Origin: Candidatus Brocadia sp.
GTDB taxonomy: Bacteria; Planctomycetota; Brocadiia; Brocadiales; Brocadiaceae
DNA length: 37,031 nucleotides
Direction: 5' to 3'
Assembly (NCBI GenBank): GCA_013360945.1
Contig: JABWAQ010000027.1
Location: forward strand, 1-37,031
Part shown: piece by piece, positions 7,682-36,868 of the stretch
How positions within the stretch are numbered: position 1 is the stretch's first letter
Layout: each line of letters starts with the position of its first letter
Program-made: the position numbers and the translations under genes
Notes under the pieces: model-generated
Database searches by the model: none
What the model was told of the DNA's origin: nothing
What the model saw: the letters and a program-made list of their open reading frames with translations, nothing else

Positions 7682-8329
7682 TCAATCTTTTACAAACGAT
7701 ACCTTTTTAGCCCAAATGCTCTTAGGATAATCTTTTTTGATCTTCTTCCATGCTTTTAATAAAGCGTCCACGTTACGGGTAACCTTATATTCCGAAACGC
7801 CAAACCAATATTGCGCCTCCGGGGCGATATCGCTCTTGGGATATTTATCCACCACCAACTTTAATTGTACGCTGGCGCTCTTGTAATCCTGCTTTTCCAA
7901 CGACATAAAGCCTAATCCGAATTGCAATTGTGGAATAAATTCATCAGGGGGTAAGAACCCGCAGAAGCGATAATATTCGGTGCCCAGAGAATCCAAAATA
8001 ACGATGGTCGGCGTCCAAAACGCCCGGTATTTGCTCAGAAGGTCAGAACCACTTTGAACATTGATTTGTAAGGGAATGAAATTTTTATTGATGTAATCTG
8101 CTACTGCGGCATCAGGGTACGTCACGGCACCCAAGGTTTTGCAGCCTGTTCAGGTAGGTGCAAAGAAGTCCAGTAAGATAGACTTTCCCGCTGCTTTTGC
8201 CTTTACAATTACATCTTCAAGGTTTTTTTCCCACACAATGGATGACGGTACGTCTTTGGCGTTTGCGGCAAGTGTTACTGCGATGGACGCAAGTCCCAGA
8301 ATAAGACAGGATAAAATAGTTTTCACCAT
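7682..8329 (-). CDS. Exported thioredoxin-like protein with a predicted selenocysteine (UxxC) and a TPR-like tail
   Basis: From ATG 8329, preceded by GGAGG at 8336-8340, the frame encodes an N-terminal signal peptide (residues 1-24), the strand ILLDFFAPT and then an in-frame TGA at 8150-8152, followed by TGCKTL. The TGA falls at residue 60, exactly where the first Cys of the thioredoxin CxxC should be, giving UTGC with the partner Cys63. Downstream features continue the fold: AVTYPDAAVADYINKNFIPL, the cis-Pro loop WTPTIVILD, and a helical repeat (about 150-210; YPKSDIAPEAQYWFG). Total 215 residues. A hairpin 17 nt after the UGA is described separately. Reading the TGA as a nonsense mutation is the main alternative, but the position and intact flanks favour selenocysteine. 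It probably acts as a thiol oxidoreductase outside the cytoplasm. Confidence 0.75.
8115..8152 (-). promoter_or_regulatory. Candidate bacterial SECIS element after the UGA codon
   Basis: In the mRNA, 17 nt after the UGA, GGGUGC (8132-8127) pairs with GUACCC (8120-8115) as a six-base-pair stem with one G-U pair, closing the loop CGUGAC. Bacterial SECIS hairpins read by SelB lie within the coding sequence, with the apical loop about 16-37 nt after UGA and a G-U step in the loop. Both apply here. An alternative weaker fold pairs ACC with GGU. No folding program was run. Confidence 0.5.
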
Positions 8330-8624
8330 GACAATCCTCCTTTTTCAAAATGTGTCAGATAGATGAAAATACCTGGCGCGGCTATGCCGCAACCAAAACG
8401 ACCTTCCCTCTTCCCTCTTTCCTCTTCTCCGCAGGAAGGGGAAAGAAAGAAGGTATAATAAGTGTACCTTCATATTTCTCCTTCGCAAGGCGCCTGTTTC
8501 CCAACAGTTGAAGACAATCACCTCATTGGTAAAACTACCCATCAACTATCCGGCAGTCATCTGCGAACGTTGCCCAAAGATACGGGAAGCGACTCTTTTA
8601 CGTTATTCGCCATGCACGGCGTAG
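8330..8624. other. Intergenic region upstream of the Sec-thioredoxin gene
   Basis: About 295 bp between two minus-strand genes. It contains a small GCGGC..GCCGC hairpin and a pyrimidine-rich stretch followed by a purine-rich stretch (about 8400-8455) that could pair imperfectly. No convincing reading frame is seen, and no riboswitch that I can match to a consensus. Confidence 0.35.
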
Positions 8625-20439: not shown

Positions 20440-20532
20440 AGGGATGTTTCTACAAAAACAGAGCCTGAATAAGGCTGTCCGTAAGGCGTTTGTGCCTTGC
20501 AAAACACTTCAGTAAACGAAAGGGGGATATTT

Positions 20533-22278
20533 ATGAAGAAGTTTGGGATCGTATTTTTGGTATCCGTTTTCCCGCTTGTGATTATGGGTGCCGGCATTGT
20601 TCAGAAGGCAGAGGCACAGCTTTCACAAAAGGCAGAGGAACAACTTTCAGAAATTACAGAGTCATTCAGGCGTTACCTGCAGTCCGTGCTGGAAACTATT
20701 GAGGCAGAAGTAAAGCCGGAGGCACAGCCTTCAGAAAAGCCGGTGGCTCTGCTTGCAGGAAAGGAATACGAAAATGCAAACTGGGAGTATTTTAACAGAT
20801 GCGGTGGATGTCATGGAATGTTACGGAAAGGCGCAACAGGGCCTGCCCTTACGCCTGACAAGACGAAGCCAATTGGCACTGAGAAGCTTGCAAAGATAAT
20901 CTTTAACGGAACAGAGGGCGGTATGCCTGGATGGGGTGCCGGTGTTAATGTTTACACAAAGGATGATGCCGAGCTCCTTGCGAAGTATATTCAGATGGAG
21001 CCTGTTGCCCCGCCTGAGTTTAACATGAAAGAAATCAGGGCAACGTGGAAGGTCCACGTGCCGGTTGACAAAAGGCCCACAAAGCCAATGCATAATAGGA
21101 ACTGGGAGAATTTCTTTGCCGTAATTTTGAGGGACGCCGGTAAGATTGCCATAATTGACGGCGACACCAAAGAGATTGTGTCTGTTCAGGATTCCGGTTT
21201 TGCCGTTCACACCCTCAGATACTCCAAGTCCGGAAGATGGCTTTATACAATTGGCAGGGATGCCAAGGCCACAATCGTTGATCTTTGGATGGACCCTATC
21301 CAGACCGTTGCAGAGGTCAAGACCGGACTTGATGCGAGGTCAATTGAGAGCAGTAAGTATGAAAGTAAAAAAGTGAACTACGTTGACAAGCTTGCTGTGG
21401 TAGGAAACTACTGGCCCCCGAGTTACGTTATTCTTGATGGTCTTACACTTGAGCCGCTTAAGATTGTCAGCACAAGGAGTTACACGTATGACACCCAGGA
21501 GTACCATCCTGAGCCGAGGATCGCCTCTATCGTTGCATCACATTATTATCCTGAATGGGTAATAAACGTTAAAGAAACCGGCCATATCCTTCTTGTTGAT
21601 TACTCTGACATAAAAAACCTCAAGGTCTCTGCAATCGAATCGGAAAGATTCCTTCATGATGGCGGATGGGATAAATCAAAGAGATACTTCATTGTTGCGG
21701 CTAATATGAGGGATAAGCTCGTTGCCGTTGATACAAAGACAAAAAAGCTTAAGGCTATTGTAGAAACGGGCGTTAAACCTCACCCTGGAAGAGGCGCAAA
21801 TTTCAAAGATCCTGAATTTGGATGGGTTTTTGCAACACCGCATCTTGGAGAGGCAACAGTGGCCCTTATTGGCACAGATCCCAAACACAACCCTGAAAAT
21901 GCGTGGAAGGTTGTCAGAAGACTTAAGGTGGGCGGCGACGGCGGATTATTTATTAAGACTCATCCGGAAAGCAATCACCTGTGGGTAGATCACACACTTT
22001 CAAAAGATATAGATGCACAAAGAAGTGTGACGGTATATGACATCAGGTACCTTAATGCAGCGCCAACGATAATAAAACTCACTGACAAGGGCAGGATTGT
22101 TCATATGGAATACAATAAGGAGGGCAACGAGGTGTGGATATCCGTGTGGGACAGGCAGGGTGAGATTATTGTATACGACGATAAAACACTTACTGAGAAG
22201 ACAAGGATAAAAGATCCAAGTCTTGTAACTCCGACTGGTAAATTTAATGTCTATAACACAAGGCTTGATGTTTACTAA
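20533..22278 (+). CDS. nirS: Cytochrome cd1 nitrite reductase (NO-forming)
   Basis: NirS reduces nitrite to NO in the periplasm-like compartment. ATG 20533 follows AAAGGGGGA and begins a signal peptide (1-28, ending AEA). Residues 29-75 form an unusual Gln/Glu/Lys-rich segment with repeated AQLSQKAEEQLSE and PEAQPSEKP. The cytochrome c domain has CGGCH at 90-94. The eight-bladed d1 domain shows SGFAVHTLRYSKSGRWLYTI with the proximal d1-haem ligand His226, NYWPPSYVILDG, ASHYYPEWVINVKETG with catalytic His337, FLHDGGWDKSKRYF with catalytic His375, HPGRGANF and FATPHLGEATVALIGTD. All residues expected of an active enzyme are present, so this is NirS rather than NirN. Total 581 residues. Of 26 Arg codons, 24 are AGA/AGG. 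It heads the nir cluster. Confidence 0.96.
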   Translation: MKKFGIVFLVSVFPLVIMGAGIVQKAEAQLSQKAEEQLSEITESFRRYLQSVLETIEAEVKPEAQPSEKPVALLAGKEYENANWEYFNRCGGCHGMLRKGATGPALTPDKTKPIGTEKLAKIIFNGTEGGMPGWGAGVNVYTKDDAELLAKYIQMEPVAPPEFNMKEIRATWKVHVPVDKRPTKPMHNRNWENFFAVILRDAGKIAIIDGDTKEIVSVQDSGFAVHTLRYSKSGRWLYTIGRDAKATIVDLWMDPIQTVAEVKTGLDARSIESSKYESKKVNYVDKLAVVGNYWPPSYVILDGLTLEPLKIVSTRSYTYDTQEYHPEPRIASIVASHYYPEWVINVKETGHILLVDYSDIKNLKVSAIESERFLHDGGWDKSKRYFIVAANMRDKLVAVDTKTKKLKAIVETGVKPHPGRGANFKDPEFGWVFATPHLGEATVALIGTDPKHNPENAWKVVRRLKVGGDGGLFIKTHPESNHLWVDHTLSKDIDAQRSVTVYDIRYLNAAPTIIKLTDKGRIVHMEYNKEGNEVWISVWDRQGEIIVYDDKTLTEKTRIKDPSLVTPTGKFNVYNTRLDVY

Positions 22279-22379
22279 AAGATTTTTAAAGTATTACGTT
22301 CGATGTGTGAAACTTAAACCACAAGTTGCTGGAAGAATTGACTTTCAGCCTCCTTAATTTAACGCTAAAAGGTAAAAAG

Positions 22380-23456
22380 ATGCGATTAAGGGCAATTGTT
22401 GTTATTACGTTTACATTGATAGCGACGATATCTGACCTTGCTGGAAAAGGGCAGACAGATAAAAAAGTTCAAAATGAACACCTCACAAAAAAGAATCCGT
22501 TTGCCAGAGGCGATAAATCGGCGTTTGAGAGAGGCGAATATATTTATTCAAGGAAGTGCGTGAAATGTCACGGGGAGAAAGGCGATGGTACCGGCTCTAT
22601 ATTAGAAGGCGTCAAAGTGCCGGTTTTTAATAACGGGTATTTTTCAGAAAAAGAGGATGGGCATGTTTTCAGAATTGTAGAGCAGGGATTGCCTGACACC
22701 CTGATGCCCTCCTTTGGACCAGGCAGCGATGATATTCTCTCTGCAGGCGATATATGGAAACTGATAGTTTTTATGCGCAGGAGGTTTGGCGAAAAAATTC
22801 CGTATGAATACCTTGCAAAGAAGAGTCCGTTTGCCAGAGGTGATAAATCAGCGCTTGAGAGGGGCGAATATATTTATTCAAGGAAGTGCGTGAAATGTCA
22901 CGGGGAGAAAGGCGATGGCGCCGGCTCTATATTAAAAGGCGTCAAAATGCCGGTTTTTAATAATGGGTATTTTTCAGAAAAAGAGGATGGACAGGTATTC
23001 TGGATTGTAGAGCATGGATTGTCTGGCACCCTGATGCCTTCCTACGGACCAGGCAGCGATGATATTCTCTCTGCAGATGATGTATGGAAAGTAATAGTTT
23101 TTATGCGCACGAGGTTTGGCGAAAAAATTCCGTACGAATACCTTGCAAAGAAGAATCCGTTTGCCAGAAGCGATAAATCAGCGCTTGGGAGGGGCGAATA
23201 TATTTATTCAAGGAAGTGTGTAAAATGTCATGGGGAGAAAGGGGATGGTACCGGCTCCATATTAAAAGGTATCAAAATGCCGGTTTTTAACAAAGAGTAT
23301 TTTTCGAAAAAAGAGGATGGATATATCTTCTGGATAATAGAACAGGGATTGCCTGATACCCTGATGTCATCTTTTGGACCAGGTAGTGCTGAGGTTCTAT
23401 CTTCAGATGATATATGGAAAACGATAGCCTTTACACACGATAAGTTTGGTAAATAA
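22380..23456 (+). CDS. Tri-haem cytochrome c built from three tandem repeats
   Basis: From ATG 22380 (preceded by AAAAGG) the 358-residue product has a signal-like segment (1-20) and three near-identical class I cytochrome c modules of 110 residues. Haem motifs CVKCH lie at 60-64, 170-174 and 280-284. Each module reads KNPFARGDKSA..RGEYIYSRKC, GEKGDG, GSIL.GVK.PVFNNGYFSEKEDG and ends ..PSFGPGSDDIL..DIWK.IVF. The LMP Met before the FGPG segment is a likely sixth haem ligand in modules one and two (LMS in three). It sits about 100 bp after nirS and five bases before the NirN-like gene, so it is a plausible electron donor to NirS or NirN. A single-module relative is at 27498-28013. Confidence 0.92.
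   Translation: MRLRAIVVITFTLIATISDLAGKGQTDKKVQNEHLTKKNPFARGDKSAFERGEYIYSRKCVKCHGEKGDGTGSILEGVKVPVFNNGYFSEKEDGHVFRIVEQGLPDTLMPSFGPGSDDILSAGDIWKLIVFMRRRFGEKIPYEYLAKKSPFARGDKSALERGEYIYSRKCVKCHGEKGDGAGSILKGVKMPVFNNGYFSEKEDGQVFWIVEHGLSGTLMPSYGPGSDDILSADDVWKVIVFMRTRFGEKIPYEYLAKKNPFARSDKSALGRGEYIYSRKCVKCHGEKGDGTGSILKGIKMPVFNKEYFSKKEDGYIFWIIEQGLPDTLMSSFGPGSAEVLSSDDIWKTIAFTHDKFGK
22491..23456 (+). repeat. Three direct repeats with a 330-bp period inside the tri-haem gene
   Basis: Units begin at about 22491, 22821 and 23151 (AAGAATCCGT, AAGAGTCCGT, AAGAATCCGT), and the haem codons at 22557, 22887 and 23217 are exactly 330 bp apart. Long stretches are identical at the DNA level, for example around the TATATTTATTCAAGGAAGTG haem approach, so the duplication is recent or kept uniform by gene conversion. 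Confidence 0.9.
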
Positions 23457-23461
23457 GGTTT

Positions 23462-25165
23462 ATGCAAAAAAGATTGACAGCAGCCGTGGGAAGCACACTG
23501 TTATTTGTTGTTTTCTGCGCGGTCATTTCTGCAGCGCCCGACCTAAACACAACCGCTAAAGACGAAGAACTCTATCAGACAAACTGCGCCCTGTGTCATC
23601 ATCCACAAAGAATAGGAACAACGGCCTCGGCGCTTTTGCCGGTACTTTTAAAAAATTTCTCCGACAATGACCTTGCAGGTATTATCAGGAATGGACTTCC
23701 GGCAACACAAATGCCGCCATTTAGCCACCTGAGTGATGAAGAAATAAATATGATTGTGGCATTTCTTAGAAAGCCCGCGTCCGTTACATGGAAAGAAGAT
23801 GATATAAAGAGAAGCATTACAATTACAGATGGGGATGCAATGCCTGTAAAGATAAAAGACACAAAAAACCTCACTGCAGTTGTCGAAAAGGGTAATAGCA
23901 AGGTATGGGTCATGGAAGGAGACAGCATACTTGATAAGTTTGATTACAGCAACATCCACGGCGGCCTGAAGTTTACGCCTGACGCCGGGAAGTTCTTTAT
24001 ACCGGCAAGAGACGGTTGGGTTGGGATTTATGATACCAGCAGGGGGTTTTACGGAAAGATAAGGGTATGCGTAAATTTAAGAAATATAGCGCTTTCAAGA
24101 GACGGAAGCCGGTTGTTTGCAGCTTGTCTTCTTCCTGAGTCTATCGTTGTTGTTGATGTTGAAAGCATAAAGAAGGATAGCGCCCCTGTAGTAAAGGTTA
24201 TCCCTATTAAAGGAAAGATTAACGCCATATACGAGCTTCATTCAAGGGATGAGGCAATATTTACATTCAGAGACAAGCCGCTTCTTGGTATAATGAATAC
24301 GAAAAGCCTTTCAATTGATTATATGAAACTCAGGAAGCCTTTCGATGATTTCTTCATAGACCCGCTTGATTCCTACGTAATAGGAAGCTCAAGAAACGGC
24401 AAACTCCTTCAGGTATACAGGATTAAAGACAGAAAAAAGATCTTTGACTATCCAATAGAGAGTATGCCTCATCTGTTTTCTGCTTCCTGCTGGTATAATA
24501 AGGGATCCTTCTATTTTGCCACTGCGCATATCGGAAAGACATACTTGAGCATATGGAAGATGTATGACTGGGCATTTCTGGGAAAGGTTGACGTAGGCGG
24601 AAGCGGTTTTTTTGTAAGAACAAACTCCAATAACCCGTATCTCTGGATTGACAATGGCAGTGACGAGCTTGTCTTGATAGACAAAAGGGATCTTTCACAG
24701 AAAAAGATAGTTCCGGTAAAAGGCAAAAGGATGATACATACCGAAATTAGCGGAGACGGCAACATCGCATATTTAAGCATCTATGAAAATGATGGAAACC
24801 TCATAGTGTATGATGCGCTTACATTAAAAGAGCAAAAGAGATTTCCGGCGAACCTGCCTGTAGGGAAATATAATTTTGTAAATAAAAGCAGGCGTTATGA
24901 CCCTGTTCAGCTTGGCGGAGAGGTCTTCAGACAGAAGTGCTGGGGATGCCACCACCCCACACATGAGGCGTTTGGCCCTTCTTTCAAGTGGATTTACGAA
25001 AACAGGAATGAAAATACAATAAGGGCTTACATATCACACCCTCACGCCACATACAGCGCCCTCGGCTATGCTAGGACTTCCATGCCGGAAATAAAGACAG
25101 GTGCAGAGGAGATGGAGTTTCTCCTTAGTTTTATAAAGGAATCAGCACATGCTAAGGATAACTGA
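23462..25165 (+). CDS. nirN: NirN-like d1-type protein with cytochrome c domains at both ends
   Basis: NirN is a periplasmic c/d1 protein that oxidises dihydro-d1-haem to d1-haem in the last step of cofactor synthesis. This 567-residue protein has a signal peptide (1-25), an N-terminal cytochrome c domain (CALCH at 42-46; MPPFSHLSDEEINMIVAFL) and a central d1-type propeller (about 110-475). Blade segments include NIHGGLKFTPDAGKFFIPAR, FATAHIGKTYLSIW, NPYLWIDNGSDELVLID and IHTEISGDGNIAYLSIYEND. A second cytochrome c domain is at the end (CWGCH at 493-497; SMPEIKTGAEEMEFLLSFI). NirN normally has one c domain, so the c-d1-c order is unusual. The two His of the NirS active site are not matched in context, arguing against a second nitrite reductase. 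It overlaps the nirJ start by 17 bp. Confidence 0.82.
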   Translation: MQKRLTAAVGSTLLFVVFCAVISAAPDLNTTAKDEELYQTNCALCHHPQRIGTTASALLPVLLKNFSDNDLAGIIRNGLPATQMPPFSHLSDEEINMIVAFLRKPASVTWKEDDIKRSITITDGDAMPVKIKDTKNLTAVVEKGNSKVWVMEGDSILDKFDYSNIHGGLKFTPDAGKFFIPARDGWVGIYDTSRGFYGKIRVCVNLRNIALSRDGSRLFAACLLPESIVVVDVESIKKDSAPVVKVIPIKGKINAIYELHSRDEAIFTFRDKPLLGIMNTKSLSIDYMKLRKPFDDFFIDPLDSYVIGSSRNGKLLQVYRIKDRKKIFDYPIESMPHLFSASCWYNKGSFYFATAHIGKTYLSIWKMYDWAFLGKVDVGGSGFFVRTNSNNPYLWIDNGSDELVLIDKRDLSQKKIVPVKGKRMIHTEISGDGNIAYLSIYENDGNLIVYDALTLKEQKRFPANLPVGKYNFVNKSRRYDPVQLGGEVFRQKCWGCHHPTHEAFGPSFKWIYENRNENTIRAYISHPHATYSALGYARTSMPEIKTGAEEMEFLLSFIKESAHAKDN

Positions 25166-26237
25166 ATATATAAGAGACGCTCTTTCCCGAAAAGACTGCA
25201 GGCCCTTTGGCGGCACCATCATTATATGGAATCTTACAAACAACTGCAACCTTTCATGCAAACACTGTTACGCAAATGCAAATCAGATAAAAGGCAAAGA
25301 CCTTGACGGTGAAGAGATGATGAGGCTTATACACCAACTAAAACAGTCGGGGGTAAAATTTGCGATTCTTTCAGGCGGAGAACCGCTTATGCGGGAGGAC
25401 GTATTTGATATAGCGTGTGAACTAAAAAGCGCCGGGATAAAGACGTATCTCTCAACAAACGGCATTCTTGTAAGAGAAGATACTGTAGACAGAATAAAAG
25501 AGCATTTTGACTATATTGGCATAAGCATAGACGGAGAGGCGGAGGTACACGACTCGTTCAGGGGTAGAAAAGGTGCATTTGAGGATTCACTGAGGGCTAT
25601 AAGATTATGCCTGAAAACCGGCTTAAAGGTCGGCGTAAGGTTTACGCTTACAAAAAACACGCAGAAGAGTCTCCCGTTTATCTTTGAGCTTGCACGGAAG
25701 GAAGGTATCCCGAAGATATACATATCACACCTTGTGCATTCAGGCAGGGCTGGAGATTTGCGCGATCCTGGCAGGGATGACTATCGCCGGGCTGTAGAAT
25801 TTATACTTAAAAAGTCTTTTGAATTTGTAGAGAAAAATGTTCCAGTAGATGTCGTAACAGGCAACAATGACGCAGATGCCGTGATGCTTCTTAATGCGTT
25901 TAAAGAAAGATACCCCGATGCATATAACAGGCTTTATGAGAGATTAAAGACATGGGGCGGCAATCAGGCCGGAAAGCGGCTTATAAACATTGACGCCGAA
26001 GGTAATGTAAAGCCCGACCCGTTTTTCCCTGACGTCGTTGGAAATGTGAGGACAAGGAGTTTCTGCGAGATATGGAATTCAAACGGCATCCTCTCAAGGC
26101 TCAGAGAGAATCCGCGGAGGCTTAAGGGCAAGTGCAGAGAATGCGCCTATATTGAGATATGCAATGGAAACTCAAGGGCAAGGGCGTTTATCCGGCACGG
26201 AGATTATTTTGACGAGGATCCGGCATGCTATATATAA
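25149..26237 (+). CDS. nirJ: Radical SAM protein NirJ, d1-haem biosynthesis
   Basis: NirJ is the radical SAM enzyme that removes propionate side chains from 12,18-didecarboxysirohaem to introduce the keto groups of d1-haem. Seen here: the radical SAM Cys motif CNLSCKHC (Cys33, 37, 40), ILSGGEPLMREDVF, YLSTNGILV and YIGISIDGEAEVHDSFRG. The C-terminal auxiliary cluster region has CRECAYIEICNGNSRARA (Cys329, 332, 338) and DEDPAC (Cys360), the NirJ/AhbD pattern. The 362-residue length is slightly short for NirJ. AhbD (haem synthesis) is the nearest alternative, but the position between the NirN-like gene and nirF settles it. The start overlaps the NirN-like gene and the stop overlaps nirF, implying translational coupling. 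Confidence 0.92.
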   Translation: MLRITEYIRDALSRKDCRPFGGTIIIWNLTNNCNLSCKHCYANANQIKGKDLDGEEMMRLIHQLKQSGVKFAILSGGEPLMREDVFDIACELKSAGIKTYLSTNGILVREDTVDRIKEHFDYIGISIDGEAEVHDSFRGRKGAFEDSLRAIRLCLKTGLKVGVRFTLTKNTQKSLPFIFELARKEGIPKIYISHLVHSGRAGDLRDPGRDDYRRAVEFILKKSFEFVEKNVPVDVVTGNNDADAVMLLNAFKERYPDAYNRLYERLKTWGGNQAGKRLINIDAEGNVKPDPFFPDVVGNVRTRSFCEIWNSNGILSRLRENPRRLKGKCRECAYIEICNGNSRARAFIRHGDYFDEDPACYI

Positions 26238-27400
26238 TAAAATATAAATCCGACAAGATTTATCATTGCTGGCGAAACAAAGCAATTACGCTTTCTTATG
26301 TAAAATTGTTTCACACCATCTGCATAGTCATTACGACAGCGTTATTGATACTCTCTGCTTTTGCACCTGCTTTTGCAGAGAAGATCTATGTTGTTGAAAG
26401 AGAGCGGGGGCGGCTTGCTGTAATAGAGGACGGAGCTCTTTCCGGGGAGATAGAAAATCTTGGGAATCTCAATCATGCCACGGTAAAGTTTAATAAAAAC
26501 TTTATGTACGTAATAAGCAGGGACGGCTGTCTCTCGCAAATAGATATACGTTCCGACCGACTTCTGCGGCAGGTCAATGCCGGCAAAAGCGGAATAGGTT
26601 TTATATTTATTGACGGCATGGTGGCAGTTGCAAACTATGACCCTTATGATGTGGTTATACTTGACGAAGACCTGAACACACTGAAAAAGATTGAGACAAC
26701 ATCGAGAAATGTTGGCATAAAATCATGGAAGAGATTTCTGATATTTGCCCTCATGGATAAAGACGAGATATGGGTACTCGATTCAAAAAAGAACTTTGAA
26801 ATGCATAAGACGATAAAGAATGCAGGAAGTATGCCTTTTGATGCCCTCATGTCAAAGAATAAATATATCGTCGGATTTTTTAATGAGGGAAGCGTGGGCA
26901 TGCTTGACGCAAAAACCATGAAATATTCTAAAAGAGAACTGAGGATGGGCGAGGGAGAGGCGGTATTTAAGATACCCCATTTTGGCACATGGGGAGTATA
27001 TAAGGACAGCGCCTTTATCCCCGCAGTTGGGGAGAGGAGGCTTCATATTGTGGATATCAATAGTTTTAAGCACATCGGCTATATAGATTTGATAGGACTT
27101 CCTGTGTTTGTCGCAATCTCTCCTGATGGCAGATATATTGCAGTAAACTACAGCGGAGACAAGGAAGATTTCCTGACAGTCGTTGACGTTAAAAACAGAA
27201 AGGTCTTAAACGACATAAAAGCGGGGAAGAGGATAATGCATATAAGATTCTCTGATGACAGCAGGAGACTGTATCTCTCATCTTATTTTGATAACACGGT
27301 AAGAGTCCTTGATACAGATGAATGGAAAGTCTTAAGCGGGATAACAGTTCCGACCCCATCAGGGATATTTATATTGCCGTCAGTGAATAAGGGTAAGTAA
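26225..27400 (+). CDS. nirF: NirF, d1-haem biosynthesis propeller protein
   Basis: NirF is a d1-domain-like protein without a cytochrome domain, needed for a late step of d1-haem synthesis outside the cytoplasm. After a hydrophobic signal segment (HTICIVITTALLILSAFAP, ending near AFA) it reads EKIYVVERERGRLAVIEDG, ISRDGCLSQIDIRSDRLLRQ, VAVANYDPYDVVILD, EGEAVFKIPHFGTWG (with the His expected at the tetrapyrrole-binding face), FIPAVGERRLHIVD, GLPVFVAISPDGRYIAVN and RIMHIRFSDDSRRLYLSS. No CxxCH is present, as expected. The 391-residue frame from ATG 26225 overlaps nirJ by 13 bp and has a long n-region of about 27 residues before the signal, so a later non-ATG start is possible. Confidence 0.88.
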   Translation: MLYIIKYKSDKIYHCWRNKAITLSYVKLFHTICIVITTALLILSAFAPAFAEKIYVVERERGRLAVIEDGALSGEIENLGNLNHATVKFNKNFMYVISRDGCLSQIDIRSDRLLRQVNAGKSGIGFIFIDGMVAVANYDPYDVVILDEDLNTLKKIETTSRNVGIKSWKRFLIFALMDKDEIWVLDSKKNFEMHKTIKNAGSMPFDALMSKNKYIVGFFNEGSVGMLDAKTMKYSKRELRMGEGEAVFKIPHFGTWGVYKDSAFIPAVGERRLHIVDINSFKHIGYIDLIGLPVFVAISPDGRYIAVNYSGDKEDFLTVVDVKNRKVLNDIKAGKRIMHIRFSDDSRRLYLSSYFDNTVRVLDTDEWKVLSGITVPTPSGIFILPSVNKGK

Positions 27401-27497
27401 GTAAGCAGGGAACTACGAATATAGCAGAAGTATTCCTTTCAATCATTTGTACTAATAATCAAATGCCAGAAGCCACTACAAAAATATTTTTATGGTG

Positions 27498-28013
27498 CTA
27501 TTTGCCAAACTTCTCGCGCTCGTAAGCGATCACCTTCCATATATCGGCCTCTGATAGATTATAATCGCTGCCAGGCCCAAAAGGACGCATCGGGGTGTTG
27601 GGCAATCCATGCTCTACTATCCAGAAGATATATCCATCCTCTCTTTTTGAATAATACTCTTTGTTAAAAACCGGCATTTGGTACCCTTCTAATATAGAAC
27701 CGACTCCATCGCCATTTTTCCCATGGCACCTTGCGCACTTCTTTGAAAAAATATATTCACCCCTCTCAAACACCGATTTGTCACTTCCGGTAAATGGATT
27801 TTTCTTTGCGAGGTATTCATCCGGAATTTTTCTGTCCTTGCGTTCGCCCCCTGCAAGGACAGACATCGGCACGATTAATATCATCGCAAAGATCGTCGTT
27901 TTTAAGCTATTAAATGTATCAGATCTTTTTTGTCTGCACTGAGAATCAATTGGTCCCAACAAACCTGATGCTGTTTTTTGCATCGTTTTGAAATTCTTTA
28001 TGGTTGCCCCCAT
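27498..28013 (-). CDS. Mono-haem cytochrome c, paralogue of the tri-haem repeat unit
   Basis: The 171-residue protein starts at ATG 28013, preceded by GGAGG at an ideal distance. A hydrophobic segment (about 39-55, LKTTIFAMILIVPMSVLAGG) acts as signal or anchor after a long n-region. The single haem motif is CARCH, and the domain (EYLAKKNPFTGSDKS, FERGEYIFSKKC, GKNGDGVGSILEG, PFGPGSDYNLSEADIWKVIAYE) matches the 110-residue module of the tri-haem gene closely. It faces the nir genes and is transcribed toward nirF, separated by about 100 bp without a clear terminator. A likely role is electron carriage to the nir enzymes; direct evidence is lacking. Confidence 0.9.
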   Translation of the reverse strand: MGATIKNFKTMQKTASGLLGPIDSQCRQKRSDTFNSLKTTIFAMILIVPMSVLAGGERKDRKIPDEYLAKKNPFTGSDKSVFERGEYIFSKKCARCHGKNGDGVGSILEGYQMPVFNKEYYSKREDGYIFWIVEHGLPNTPMRPFGPGSDYNLSEADIWKVIAYEREKFGK

Positions 28014-33760: not shown

Positions 33761-34177
33761 TATTGCAAAATACCGCCCCATCTGTATAATTTATACAATT
33801 TGTTATCAAAACACTTAATGCCTGGCGACAAAAAGAAGTAACCGATGGGTTATTTTTTATTATCATCTTTTTTGGGGTCTAACCTATGATCTGGAAAAAC
33901 TGCACGTCATTTACATACGGGTGAGTGCACTTACTGAAGTGGCGGCGGCATTTCCAGGTTAAGTGGACAAGGTATAGACTCTTAAAGGATTACCTGTAGT
34001 ACATTCCCGAAAAATGCAAGGGACATACCTGCCTTGCTCTGTACTCATATCATCCAGCAAGAAATCTCAAACTCCATCCATCTCAGCTTCACCTTACCAG
34101 GAAAAGACACCGCCTCTTCGTCCAATAGTTAATTGGATAATTTGTTTATTTAAGGTTTTTTAATGGGGGATGTAATC
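33761..34177. other. Intergenic region before the formate dehydrogenase-type gene
   Basis: About 400 bp. One stretch (about 33930-34130) can be read as a frame broken by a TAG but shows no recognisable family. No repeat or RNA is identified. Ribosome binding candidates AAGG (34150) and GGGGGA (34165) precede the two possible starts of the next gene. Confidence 0.4.
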
Positions 34178-36868
34178 ATGGTATCTTTAGTGATAGATGG
34201 GAAAAAAGTGGAGGCAGAACCTTCTCAAACCATTTTACAAGCAGCACAAAAACTGGGGATTCGCATCCCTACGTTGTGCCACGATCCGCGCCTGGCTCCT
34301 TCCGGGGCATGCCGGATGTGTGTGGTAGAGGTAGAAGGTGCGCGATCCCTGGTCGCTTCCTGCGCAACCCCTGTTTCTGCAGGTATGAAGGTCTCTACCC
34401 AAAGCGAATCAGTAACGCGTGCACGAAAACTCAATCTTGAACTTATCTGGTCTCACCATCCCAATGATTGTCTTACATGCGATAAGGCAGGAGAATGCCA
34501 GCTTCAAAAACTCATGTATGACTATGATGTAAAGACATCACGGTTTGCAGAACAAAATCCACCCCCCAAACCTGACACTTCTAATCCCGGTATCTATCGG
34601 GATATGAACAAATGTATTCTTTGTGGAAAATGCGTCAGGATCTGTGACGAGGTTCAAAATCAACACATATGGGCATTTTCAAACCGCGGGATGCAAACCT
34701 CAATCGCAACGGCCTTTGAAAAACCCTTAAATGATGCTGGGTGTGTATTTTGCGGACACTGTGTTTCTGTGTGTCCGGTAGGCGCCCTCATGGACAAACC
34801 TGCCGCAAAAAAGGGACGGTCATGGGAAACCAGGAAGGTAAGGACTGTCTGTTGTTACTGCGGTGTGGGATGTAGCCTTATGCTTCATGTAAAAGGGAGT
34901 GAAATTCTGAAGGTAACAGCCGATACCCATGACGCCCCAAATTATGGCAGTCTCTGTGTAAAGGGGCGATATGGGTTTGAGTTTTACAAAAGCCCGGACC
35001 GTTTAAAGTCCCCGCTGATCCGGGATCGTATTGACCAGCCCTTTCGGGAGGCAAGCTGGGATGAGGCCATTGGCCTGGTCGCCGGAAAGCTGCTGGAGAT
35101 CAAAAAGAAATATGGTTCAGACGCAGTTGGATGCCTTAGTTCCTCGAGGGGTACGAACGAAGAAAATTATCTGGCTCAAAAATTTGCCCGCGCTGTGATA
35201 GGAACCAACAATATGGATAACTGTGCACGGGTATGCCACGCCCCGTCAGTAACGGGCCTCCGCGCCTCTTTAGGAAGCGGAGCAGCTACCAATTCATTGG
35301 CTGATATTGAAGGTGCTGAGGTGCTCATTGTCAGCGGTTCCAATACCACCGAAGCTCATCCGGTAGCTGCCTTAAAAATCAAAAAAGCGGTACGGCAGAG
35401 TGGGGCGAAACTCATCGTAATCGACCCGCGTGAGATAGAACTCGTCCAGTACGCAACCGTGTGGTTGCGTTTAAAACCAGGAACCAACGTAGCCCTTATC
35501 AATGGCCTGCTGCATGTCATTTTAAAAGAAGGCCTGGAAAACAGGGAATTTATCAAGCAACGGACAGAGAACATAGACATGTTACAGCAGGTAGCAGCCC
35601 AGTACACACCTGAAAAGACGGAGGAGATTACCGGGGTGCCACAAGAGGAAATCATCAAGGCTGCCAGAATTTACGCCGGTACGCGGAAGGGCATGATTGT
35701 CTACGGATTGGGAATGACCGAACATAAGGCCGGCTCTCATGGCGTCATGTCCCTGGCCAATCTGGCTTTGATTACGGGCAACGTAGGCCGTCCAAATACC
35801 GGGATCAATCCGCTTCGCGGACAGAATAACGTCCAGGGTTCATGTGACATGGGGGCATTACCAGACGTCTACACCTGTTATCAAAAGGTCGATGATCCAA
35901 TTGTCAATAAAAAGTTCTCTGAGGCATGGGGTTGCCAACTTCCCGCAAAACCGGGTCTAAAAGAACCGCAAATGTACCGGGAAGCCCTGGCAGGAAAACT
36001 AAAAGCGATGTATATCATTGGGTATGACCCGGCTGTAACGCAGGCCAATATCCATCATGTGCGGTCAGCCATGAAAAAACTTGACCTCCTTGTAGTACAG
36101 GAGCTTTTTATGACGGAGACGGCAAAACTGGCCCATGTAGTACTCCCCGCTGGCTGTTTCTTTGAGAAGGACGGTACCTTTACCAACGCAGAAAGAAGGG
36201 TCAGACGGCTCAATCAGGCCATTCCCTTGCCTAAGGGAACAAAACACGATTGGGAGATTATATGCCTGATTGCCAGTGCTATGGGATATCCCATGCATTA
36301 TAATCATCCAAATGAAATTATGGATGAACTTGCCAGCCTTACCCCGGAGTTTGCAGGGATCGATTTTAAGCGACTTGAGGGAGATGGCCTGGTATGGCCC
36401 GTGTGGGATAAGAAACATCCCGGCACACCCATTTTACACAAAGATACATTCACCAGGGGAAAGGGAAGGTTTAACGATCTTCTCTATACTCCTTCGGAGG
36501 AATTGCCCGATAGTAACTATCCTTTATATTTAACCACAGGCCGTCGTCTTTACCATTATAACAACGGCTCCATGTCATTACGAAACCCGGAGATTTATGC
36601 GATCAGTTCAGAGGAATTCGCAGAAATTCATCCCAGCGATGCCGAAACACTCAGTGTAAAAACCGGTAATAAAATAAGGGTGACATCCAGGCGTGGTTCT
36701 TTGGAAGTAAAGGCACATGTCACAACAAAGTCCCGGCCAGGAAGTGTATTCCTGTCCTTCCATTTCCCGGAAACTCCAACGAACGTCTTGACAGGTCCCG
36801 GAGAAGATTTGTTGGCACTTACACCGGAATATAAGGTGTGTGCAGTAAAGGTGGAAAAGATTTGGTAG
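34178..36868 (+). CDS. Formate dehydrogenase-type molybdopterin oxidoreductase with NuoG-like Fe-S N-terminus
   Basis: Start chosen at ATG 34178 (MVSLVIDGKKVEAEPSQTIL), which has GGGGGA seven bases upstream and matches the usual start of the family; ATG 34163 would add five residues. Of 896 residues, the first 80 are a [2Fe-2S] ferredoxin domain (CHDPRLAPSGACRMCVVEVEG, CATP). Next comes the NuoG-type His/Cys motif HHPNDCLTCDKAGECQLQ and two [4Fe-4S] motifs (CILCGKCVRIC, CVFCGHCVSVCPVGAL). The catalytic domain has CCYCGVGC...GSLCVKGRYG and the Mo/W ligand region NCARVCHAPSVTGL with Cys353 where selenoprotein relatives have Sec. GLGMTEHKAGSHGVMSLANL and NPLRGQNNVQGSCDMG follow. The architecture fits the catalytic subunit of cytosolic NAD(P)- or ferredoxin-linked formate dehydrogenases. 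No partner subunit is upstream. Confidence 0.93.
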   Translation: MVSLVIDGKKVEAEPSQTILQAAQKLGIRIPTLCHDPRLAPSGACRMCVVEVEGARSLVASCATPVSAGMKVSTQSESVTRARKLNLELIWSHHPNDCLTCDKAGECQLQKLMYDYDVKTSRFAEQNPPPKPDTSNPGIYRDMNKCILCGKCVRICDEVQNQHIWAFSNRGMQTSIATAFEKPLNDAGCVFCGHCVSVCPVGALMDKPAAKKGRSWETRKVRTVCCYCGVGCSLMLHVKGSEILKVTADTHDAPNYGSLCVKGRYGFEFYKSPDRLKSPLIRDRIDQPFREASWDEAIGLVAGKLLEIKKKYGSDAVGCLSSSRGTNEENYLAQKFARAVIGTNNMDNCARVCHAPSVTGLRASLGSGAATNSLADIEGAEVLIVSGSNTTEAHPVAALKIKKAVRQSGAKLIVIDPREIELVQYATVWLRLKPGTNVALINGLLHVILKEGLENREFIKQRTENIDMLQQVAAQYTPEKTEEITGVPQEEIIKAARIYAGTRKGMIVYGLGMTEHKAGSHGVMSLANLALITGNVGRPNTGINPLRGQNNVQGSCDMGALPDVYTCYQKVDDPIVNKKFSEAWGCQLPAKPGLKEPQMYREALAGKLKAMYIIGYDPAVTQANIHHVRSAMKKLDLLVVQELFMTETAKLAHVVLPAGCFFEKDGTFTNAERRVRRLNQAIPLPKGTKHDWEIICLIASAMGYPMHYNHPNEIMDELASLTPEFAGIDFKRLEGDGLVWPVWDKKHPGTPILHKDTFTRGKGRFNDLLYTPSEELPDSNYPLYLTTGRRLYHYNNGSMSLRNPEIYAISSEEFAEIHPSDAETLSVKTGNKIRVTSRRGSLEVKAHVTTKSRPGSVFLSFHFPETPTNVLTGPGEDLLALTPEYKVCAVKVEKIW

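Follow-up and report, generated by a model that had tools for sequence, protein, structure and literature searches.

The stretch of Candidatus Brocadia sp. DNA analysed here (37,031 nucleotides; contig JABWAQ010000027.1 of assembly GCA_013360945.1), referred to as the window, carries a gene that almost certainly encodes a genuine selenoprotein. Its predicted product is an exported, DsbD-gamma-like thioredoxin of 215 residues with a TPR-like tail, in which selenocysteine (Sec, U) would be inserted at residue 60 under the direction of SelB and an RNA hairpin. The gene and its parts are as follows.

7682..8329, minus strand: predicted gene for an exported thioredoxin-like selenoprotein, complete, 215 aa, with Sec codon 60 and a TGA terminator at 7682-7684
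8150..8152, minus strand: in-frame TGA predicted to be read as Sec (U60), the first redox residue of U-T-G-C
8141..8143, minus strand: TGC codon for Cys63, the resolving residue, with no variation among 52 aligned rows
8115..8132, minus strand: predicted bacterial SECIS hairpin GGGUGC-CGUGAC-GUACCC, apical loop 23 nt past the UGA
8258..8329, minus strand: predicted signal peptide, about codons 1-24, hydrophobic and of low pLDDT, called by eye and hydropathy
7925..8245, minus strand: thioredoxin-fold domain, about residues 29-135, DsbD-gamma-like (PF13098, 47.2 bits against a gathering cut-off of 27)
7700..7918, minus strand: helical TPR-like C-terminal tail, about residues 138-210 (TPR_6, 23.4 bits, below the cut-off of 26.3)
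8336..8340, minus strand: Shine-Dalgarno-like GGAGG, six bases 5' of the ATG
7682..8134, minus strand: table 11 ORF-list fragment of 150 aa with a TTG start, without the N-terminus and the Sec site

Translation of the minus strand from 8329 to 7682 gave M...DFFAPT-U-TGCKTLGAVTYPD...KD-stop, with a single internal TGA at codon 60 (8152-8150). The earlier note on this DNA had described a frame unbroken save for one TGA and preceded by GGAGG at the ATG of 8329, and both features were recovered. It had also placed the TGA at the first redox position of the thioredoxin motif APT-U-TGC-K, which agrees with the translation and with two homologues that have Cys in the same column. Its claim that standard annotation truncates the gene was borne out by the table 11 ORF list (at least 80 aa), which gives only 7682-8134 in this frame. 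Reading UGA as a stop loses the Sec site of such genes.

Homologues were searched in 62 genomes of the order at an E-value of 1e-8, and 36 genomes gave a match. After the frames were read, 32 of these had a TGA copy, two had a Cys copy, and two (G022 and G024) had only weak matches to other, longer proteins and were rejected as carriers. TGA was retained in 50 homologous rows from 32 of the 62 genomes. At this column, where the earlier note had proposed comparing homologues, TGA is kept down to 30% identity, and Cys is found there in two genomes (G059 and G060, motif CSGC) with no match for any Sec gene. The 50 rows fall into four subfamilies that we named ourselves. Subfamily A (21 rows, UTGC or UAGC) is predicted to be exported and includes the window gene, and subfamily A2 (seven rows, UASC or UTSC) forms a tandem pair with A in three genomes, G032, G038, and G041. 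Subfamily B (13 rows, UIGC) has no hydrophobic N-terminus and includes one copy on contig C86 of the window's own assembly, G000. Subfamily C (nine rows, UGGC) belongs to family f3. Across the 52 aligned rows, no column is invariant except the U/C column (residue 60), C63, and V76. Before the order counts were made, we dropped what is left of subfamily A in G015 and G023, the degenerate second copy of G034, a fragment on C156 of G036, and the piece of the G010 copy after its TAA. Weak matches to longer proteins in G022, G024, G025, G038 (C149), G013, G033, and G036 (C127) were also dropped.

A profile search across the phylum covered 392 genomes, 356 of them outside the order. Among the matches listed outside the order, full-length TGA members were present in 30 of the 356 genomes, with TGA in the motif in 31 of 31 rows. 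These counts exclude shorter or differently built TGA matches (L141-L144, whose sequences were read, and others such as those in G203, G379, G359, and G245) and the Cys thioredoxins L147 and L148. L141-L144 are planctomycete thioredoxin-like matches whose motif holds an in-frame TGA in a different setting (e.g., WUGWC and WUGPC), and they may represent further selenoprotein families. A midpoint-rooted tree was built from 71 rows, namely the order rows minus the two shortest (L049 and L081) plus 21 of the 31 outside rows. It has many long branches, grouped the two Cys rows together, and does not prove the Sec-to-Cys direction.

This distribution bears on the explanation that the TGA is a sequencing error, or a nonsense mutation that struck a thioredoxin gene by chance. 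Decayed relatives are real. At the syntenic LOG-sdhB-ftsY site, the 5' part is missing from G015 (L077) and G023 (L084) and the C-terminal part alone was found; the G010 copy carries an extra TAA, and the second copy in G034 is degenerate. The earlier note had counted decay in relatives against its own reading; such copies do exist, but decay is not the general state of the family. L077 and L084 apparently record loss within a genus in which the B copy keeps its TGA. Against an error or pseudogene, the identical TGA recurs in 50 order rows and 31 listed outside the order, Cys stands in the column in the two order genomes, and no others, that combine a family member with no Sec-gene match, and the gene has a covarying hairpin and frozen synonymous sites. 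We therefore rejected this explanation on the conservation of the TGA, and its probability is negligible. The independent genomes that carry the same TGA also take the place of resequencing the codon.

The hairpin itself is a 6-bp stem closed by a 6-nt loop, found at 8132-8115. It starts 17 nt past the UGA, as the earlier note had stated together with the CGUGAC loop. The available text of a review of bacterial selenoproteins (PMC13188914) gives a SECIS model with a loop of 3-9 nt, a stem of 4-16 bp, a spacing of 16-37 nt, and an MFE at or below -7.5 kcal/mol. The model also has a G within the first two loop positions, followed by U. With a loop of 6, a stem of 6, a spacing of 23 nt, G then U, and an MFE of -9.2 kcal/mol, the window hairpin lies within every constraint, and the earlier placement in the bacterial SECIS range holds. 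Folding past the UGA, another check that had been proposed, gave this energy for the hairpin plus 3 nt (z -3.08), and 2 of 200 shuffles were as good. A 29-nt segment had a z of -2.09 (8 of 200 shuffles as good), and the full 60 nt past the UGA were not unusually stable (z -0.38, 57 of 200 shuffles). No Rfam match was found for the hairpin.

All six stem pairs were kept in 75 of 81 rows, compared with 3.7% of random synonymous recodings, the rows being related to one another. The rows that did not keep all six were L050, L052, and L053 (family f3), L105, L110, and L123. In 67 distinct rows without gaps, comprising 402 cells, 96.3% of the cells were paired, versus 16-55% when the partner was slid by 1-3 columns. 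RNAalifold, unaided, returned the same six pairs. Covariation was seen in 21 cells altered on both sides, versus 4.4 (sd 1.6) in shuffles, and none of 500 shuffles was as high. A less extreme measure, the number of pairs with a two-sided change (3), was equalled in 8 of 500 shuffles. Columns 23-36 form an A-U pair in 46 rows, a G-C pair in 15, a G-U pair in two, and a C-G pair in one. Whether the protein has Gly or Asp at this pair is, in most rows, coupled to whether Tyr is encoded by TAC or by TAT (Fisher 1.3e-11 over related rows), and the two copies in G062 (L112 and L116) differ in just that pairing. In L121, a stem change from U-A to C-G came together with replacement of Tyr by Cys, and in L122 the stem was rebuilt as GGCCAA/UUGGCC by compensating changes.

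Synonymous sites over the hairpin are likewise constrained. In subfamily A, codons +7 to +10 showed no synonymous change among rows with the same residue. The five-codon segment over the hairpin scored 0.964, the highest in the gene, where the 134 other positions had a mean of 0.559 (sd 0.189). When A2 and C were added to A, the segments with the highest synonymous conservation were +6 and +7 (0.866 and 0.863). No such hairpin was present at the equivalent place in the Cys forms of G059 and G060. These comparisons show that the UGA has been retained as a decoded codon and is not a product of decay, and that selection acts on the hairpin as RNA. Being unusually well conserved and covarying, this SECIS offers a natural system for how SelB reads RNA, in an apparently unnamed thioredoxin-TPR selenoprotein family.

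The earlier note had proposed looking for the Sec genes elsewhere in the genome, and selA, selB, selD, and tRNA-Sec were all found in the window's own assembly (3.85 Mb, 196 contigs, 99.27% complete, 5.29% contaminated). The tRNA-Sec scored 67.2 bits against RF01852, with anticodon tca according to ARAGORN, and the next seven RF01852 matches fetched from the assembly were Ser, Leu, and Gly tRNAs. These weaker matches lie on contigs C19, C72, C85, C154, and C188, and one of them, a tRNA-Ser, scores just above the family cut-off. The selB match scored 386.5 bits in a 677-codon frame, selA 549.2 bits, and selD 357.9 bits. The selD gene contains one in-frame TGA in the context CGG-U-AGK, which makes it a second Sec gene of this genome. 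One TGA lies inside 34 of the 35 selD matches of the order, the exception being a partial match in G012 that starts at model position 58. SelD is known as a Sec-containing protein in other bacteria, according to the available text of PMC13188914.

A scan of the assembly with the hairpin model, in which 150 of 804 first-look candidates were scored, found the window gene (53.6 bits) and the C86 paralogue (50.2 bits); the SelD element was missed by the model, and the genome may hold other Sec genes. A third match (16.8 bits, E 0.08) sits in a thioredoxin gene without a stop and was rejected as a selenoprotein. The paralogue (L070, G000:C86:13343-13921) is a subfamily B TGA gene with UIGC, no hydrophobic N-terminus, and the loop AGUUUC. 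Its neighbours are Pirin, HtrA-like protease, and FMN reductase genes.

A UGA that served as a sense codon for Trp, Gly, or Cys, or that was read through without Sec, would also leave the frame open, and TGG and TGC/TGT are one step from TGA. Such a reading is very improbable and was rejected, since TGA terminates five of the 24 window genes taken (this gene and four of the 23 others), a tRNA-Sec-type tRNA with anticodon tca is present, and homologues in Sec-less genomes have Cys, not Trp, at the column. A reassigned UGA code would not need a SECIS.

Decoding as Sec is also consistent with the co-occurrence of the gene and the Sec components. All 32 TGA carriers of the order had at least two of selA, selB, selD, and tRNA-Sec, and 24 had all four. 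No TGA copy was found in any of the 23 order genomes without Sec components. The 30 non-carriers comprised these 23, five genomes with all four components (G001, G002, G007, G024, and G042), G022 with selB only, and G037 with selA only. For any component across the 62 genomes, the association gave a Fisher value of 3.4e-11, uncorrected for genome kinship. In the five genomes with a full set and no copy, the thioredoxin-like protein is not what holds the trait. Eight of the 32 carriers were without one or two components in their assemblies, and in G041 a selA piece scored below the curated cut-off. Whether a genome counts as a carrier depends on its draft assembly, and Sec-gene calls depend on the E-value limits used. 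Among the matches listed outside the order, selB was found in 27 of 30 TGA genomes, versus 214 of 356 genomes overall (p 2.0e-4); the TGA genomes without a selB match were G201, G204, and G374.

From the comparisons of sequence above, we infer that the amino acid at residue 60 is Sec. SelB carrying Sec-tRNA(Sec) would bind the hairpin at 8115-8132, and Sec would be inserted at UGA codon 60 to yield the 215-residue exported protein with the active site U60-T-G-C63. In E. coli-type systems, UGA recoding depends on selenium supply, according to the available text of PMC4513850. The UGA could by the same token act as a selenium-dependent switch, with translation ending at residue 59 when selenium is scarce and with the resulting stub, or a 150-aa piece made by re-initiation, as the product that counts; a TTG-started ORF does exist at 8134. 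We regard a switch as improbable, because the thioredoxin and tail sequences flanking the UGA are both under protein-level constraint and both Cys forms are one continuous protein.

The protein was modelled with AlphaFold2 (pLDDT 89.2, pTM 0.82), which gave a thioredoxin fold and a helical tail, with low confidence for residues 1-26. PF13098 was the best Pfam match. Sequence-profile relatives with structures were the putative disulphide isomerase 2kuc and DsbD gamma and, for the tail, CpoB/YbgF. The fold matched DsbD gamma (e.g., 1uc7 and 2fwf) at 27% identity and a TM of 0.75 by target length. The earlier note had described the loop and helical tail as intact, which agrees with a W-T-P loop in which W105 and P107 are nearly invariant and with a tail that is helical in the model. 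Of the signal peptide it had read, the hydrophobic N-terminus stands in 21 of 21 subfamily A rows, and the designation as a signal peptide has hydropathy as its basis. The invariant resolving Cys, the hydrophobic N-terminus in all subfamily A rows, and the nearly invariant W-x-P loop point to a dithiol-type oxidoreductase outside the cytoplasm, a location suggested by the N-terminus and the fold. U60-C63 would cycle through a selenenylsulfide in thiol:disulfide exchange, and the TPR-like tail would bind partners or clients. We give about an even chance to this extracytoplasmic thiol:disulfide reductase or isomerase.

YbbN/CnoX is a cytosolic protein built of a thioredoxin domain followed by TPR-like helices, and the selenoprotein could instead be a chaperedoxin-like thioredoxin-TPR protein of this kind, serving as a stress chaperone or peroxidase and not as a disulfide reductase. 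E. coli YbbN (3qou) was the top structural match by E-value (2.4e-7, 198 columns), and several paralogues adjoin stress-type genes. Among the other subfamily B loci, 9 of 11 lie beside Pirin, 4 of 11 beside an HtrA-like protease, and 3 of 11 beside FMN reductase; hemerythrin and OsmC each occur at two of three A2 loci, and hemerythrin at five of six C loci. However, the YbbN superposition was poor overall (TM 0.39/0.30, rmsd 12 A, 16% identity), and Cys63 does not vary, as expected of the resolving residue in a dithiol-type reductase. The window protein differs from YbbN/CnoX in its hydrophobic, signal-peptide-like N-terminus. A stress chaperone or peroxidase is possible and is the less favoured of the two functions. 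For the thiol:disulfide oxidoreductase, no redox-partner neighbour or operon clue was found at the window locus, where neighbours are convergent or unrelated. The conserved neighbours in genera g1, g5, and g7 are LOG-sdhB-ftsY, convergent to the gene, and several other genera are without them.

Compared with known systems, the gene combines the ordinary SelB/SECIS mode of insertion with a motif that is already known, in a thioredoxin-TPR family that is apparently unnamed. In the table of 119 families in the 2026 review (PMC13188914), the nearest entry is a "thiol:disulfide interchange protein" with PF13098 and UxxC (WP_011366075.1). The window protein has the Pfam domain and UxxC (U60-T-G-C63) in common with that entry, a comparison made with the table description only. 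The entry gives no tail or distribution. A term search of the available review text returned no mention of planctomycetes, anammox, or Brocadia. With DsbD gamma the protein shares the thioredoxin fold, and the CxxC position of DsbD corresponds to its UxxC. Unlike DsbD, it has no membrane and alpha domains within its 215 aa, has Sec in place of the first Cys, and carries the TPR-like tail.

No NCBIfam model matched the window protein or L104 at its cut-off. Against the DsbD model NF001419, the window protein scored 50.3 (cut-off 330). It matched the thioredoxin-type model TsoB (NF045694) weakly, at 55 versus 805, and the thioredoxin-type VPGUxxT models NF041382 and NF041383 at 22 versus 350 and 27 versus 275; all three have another motif and architecture. 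The Trx7/PDZ model NF041199, also of another motif and architecture, matched 25 of the 52 members (best E 9.4e-8), the window protein not among them. Sec use is known in Planctomycetes from P1, P2, G. obscuriglobus, and I. pallida, according to the available text of PMC4807772. In the available text of open PMC papers, to which the search was limited, no anammox selenoprotein was found in print. The lone mention in the available text of a Scalindua paper is a reference title, and the available text of a Challenger Deep paper reports sel genes in about half of its MAGs and names no anammox selenoprotein.

The earlier note had taken the host for an anammox-type cell that makes Sec. The Sec genes in the same assembly sustain the second part of this claim. 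Hydrazine synthase alpha was found in 40 of the 62 order genomes and had no match in the window's own assembly, which is perhaps an assembly gap, so the anammox nature of this genome rests on kinship. It belongs to the same genus as G019, whose match agrees in contig coordinates and identity with that of Candidatus Brocadia sp. AMX1. In genus g6 (G029-G031), selA, selB, selD, and tRNA-Sec had no match, and the thioredoxin-like protein was not found at E 1e-8. Each of these genomes gave one weak match to the phylum profile (E 6e-17 to 2e-16), which may be a distant Cys relative. The hydrazine synthase alpha of G031, a complete genome on a single contig, is identical to 5C2V chain A over 782 of 782 residues, and that of G029 is 91% identical. 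The available text of PMC12607021 identifies 5C2V chain A as hydrazine synthase of Kuenenia stuttgartiensis. Family f4 includes 17 genomes without a Sec match, 15 of which had no match for the thioredoxin-like protein and two of which keep the Cys form.

Because the Kuenenia-type genomes gave no match for Sec genes, the published finding that selenium is not required, which came from a reactor dominated by Kuenenia, need not be true of Brocadia. Judging from the gene content, the same reservation applies to Loosdrechtia (L020) and the remaining carriers. The gene's distribution suggests that some anammox bacteria use selenium and that others are without genes for it. A broader and rather doubtful scenario is that thioredoxin-TPR selenoproteins are old and phylum-wide in planctomycetes, mostly with about one SECIS sequence, and were overlooked because annotation cuts them at the UGA. 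In it, the anammox exported form would carry out selenium-dependent redox repair or maturation of proteins such as cytochrome c outside the cytoplasm. Brocadia and several sister genera would depend on selenium, and Kuenenia and the anammox genomes of family f4 would have dropped the whole Sec system.

Other features of the window were recorded as well. A formate dehydrogenase-like molybdopterin enzyme (34163-36868) was considered as a second selenoprotein in the window and rejected, as it has Cys in ARVCHAPS. The region 20497-28013 holds three cytochrome d1-domain genes, c-type cytochromes, and a radical SAM gene, an arrangement that we take to resemble a nirS/nir cluster. At 1028-2380, a TatC and a FecR domain are joined in a single frame of 450 aa.
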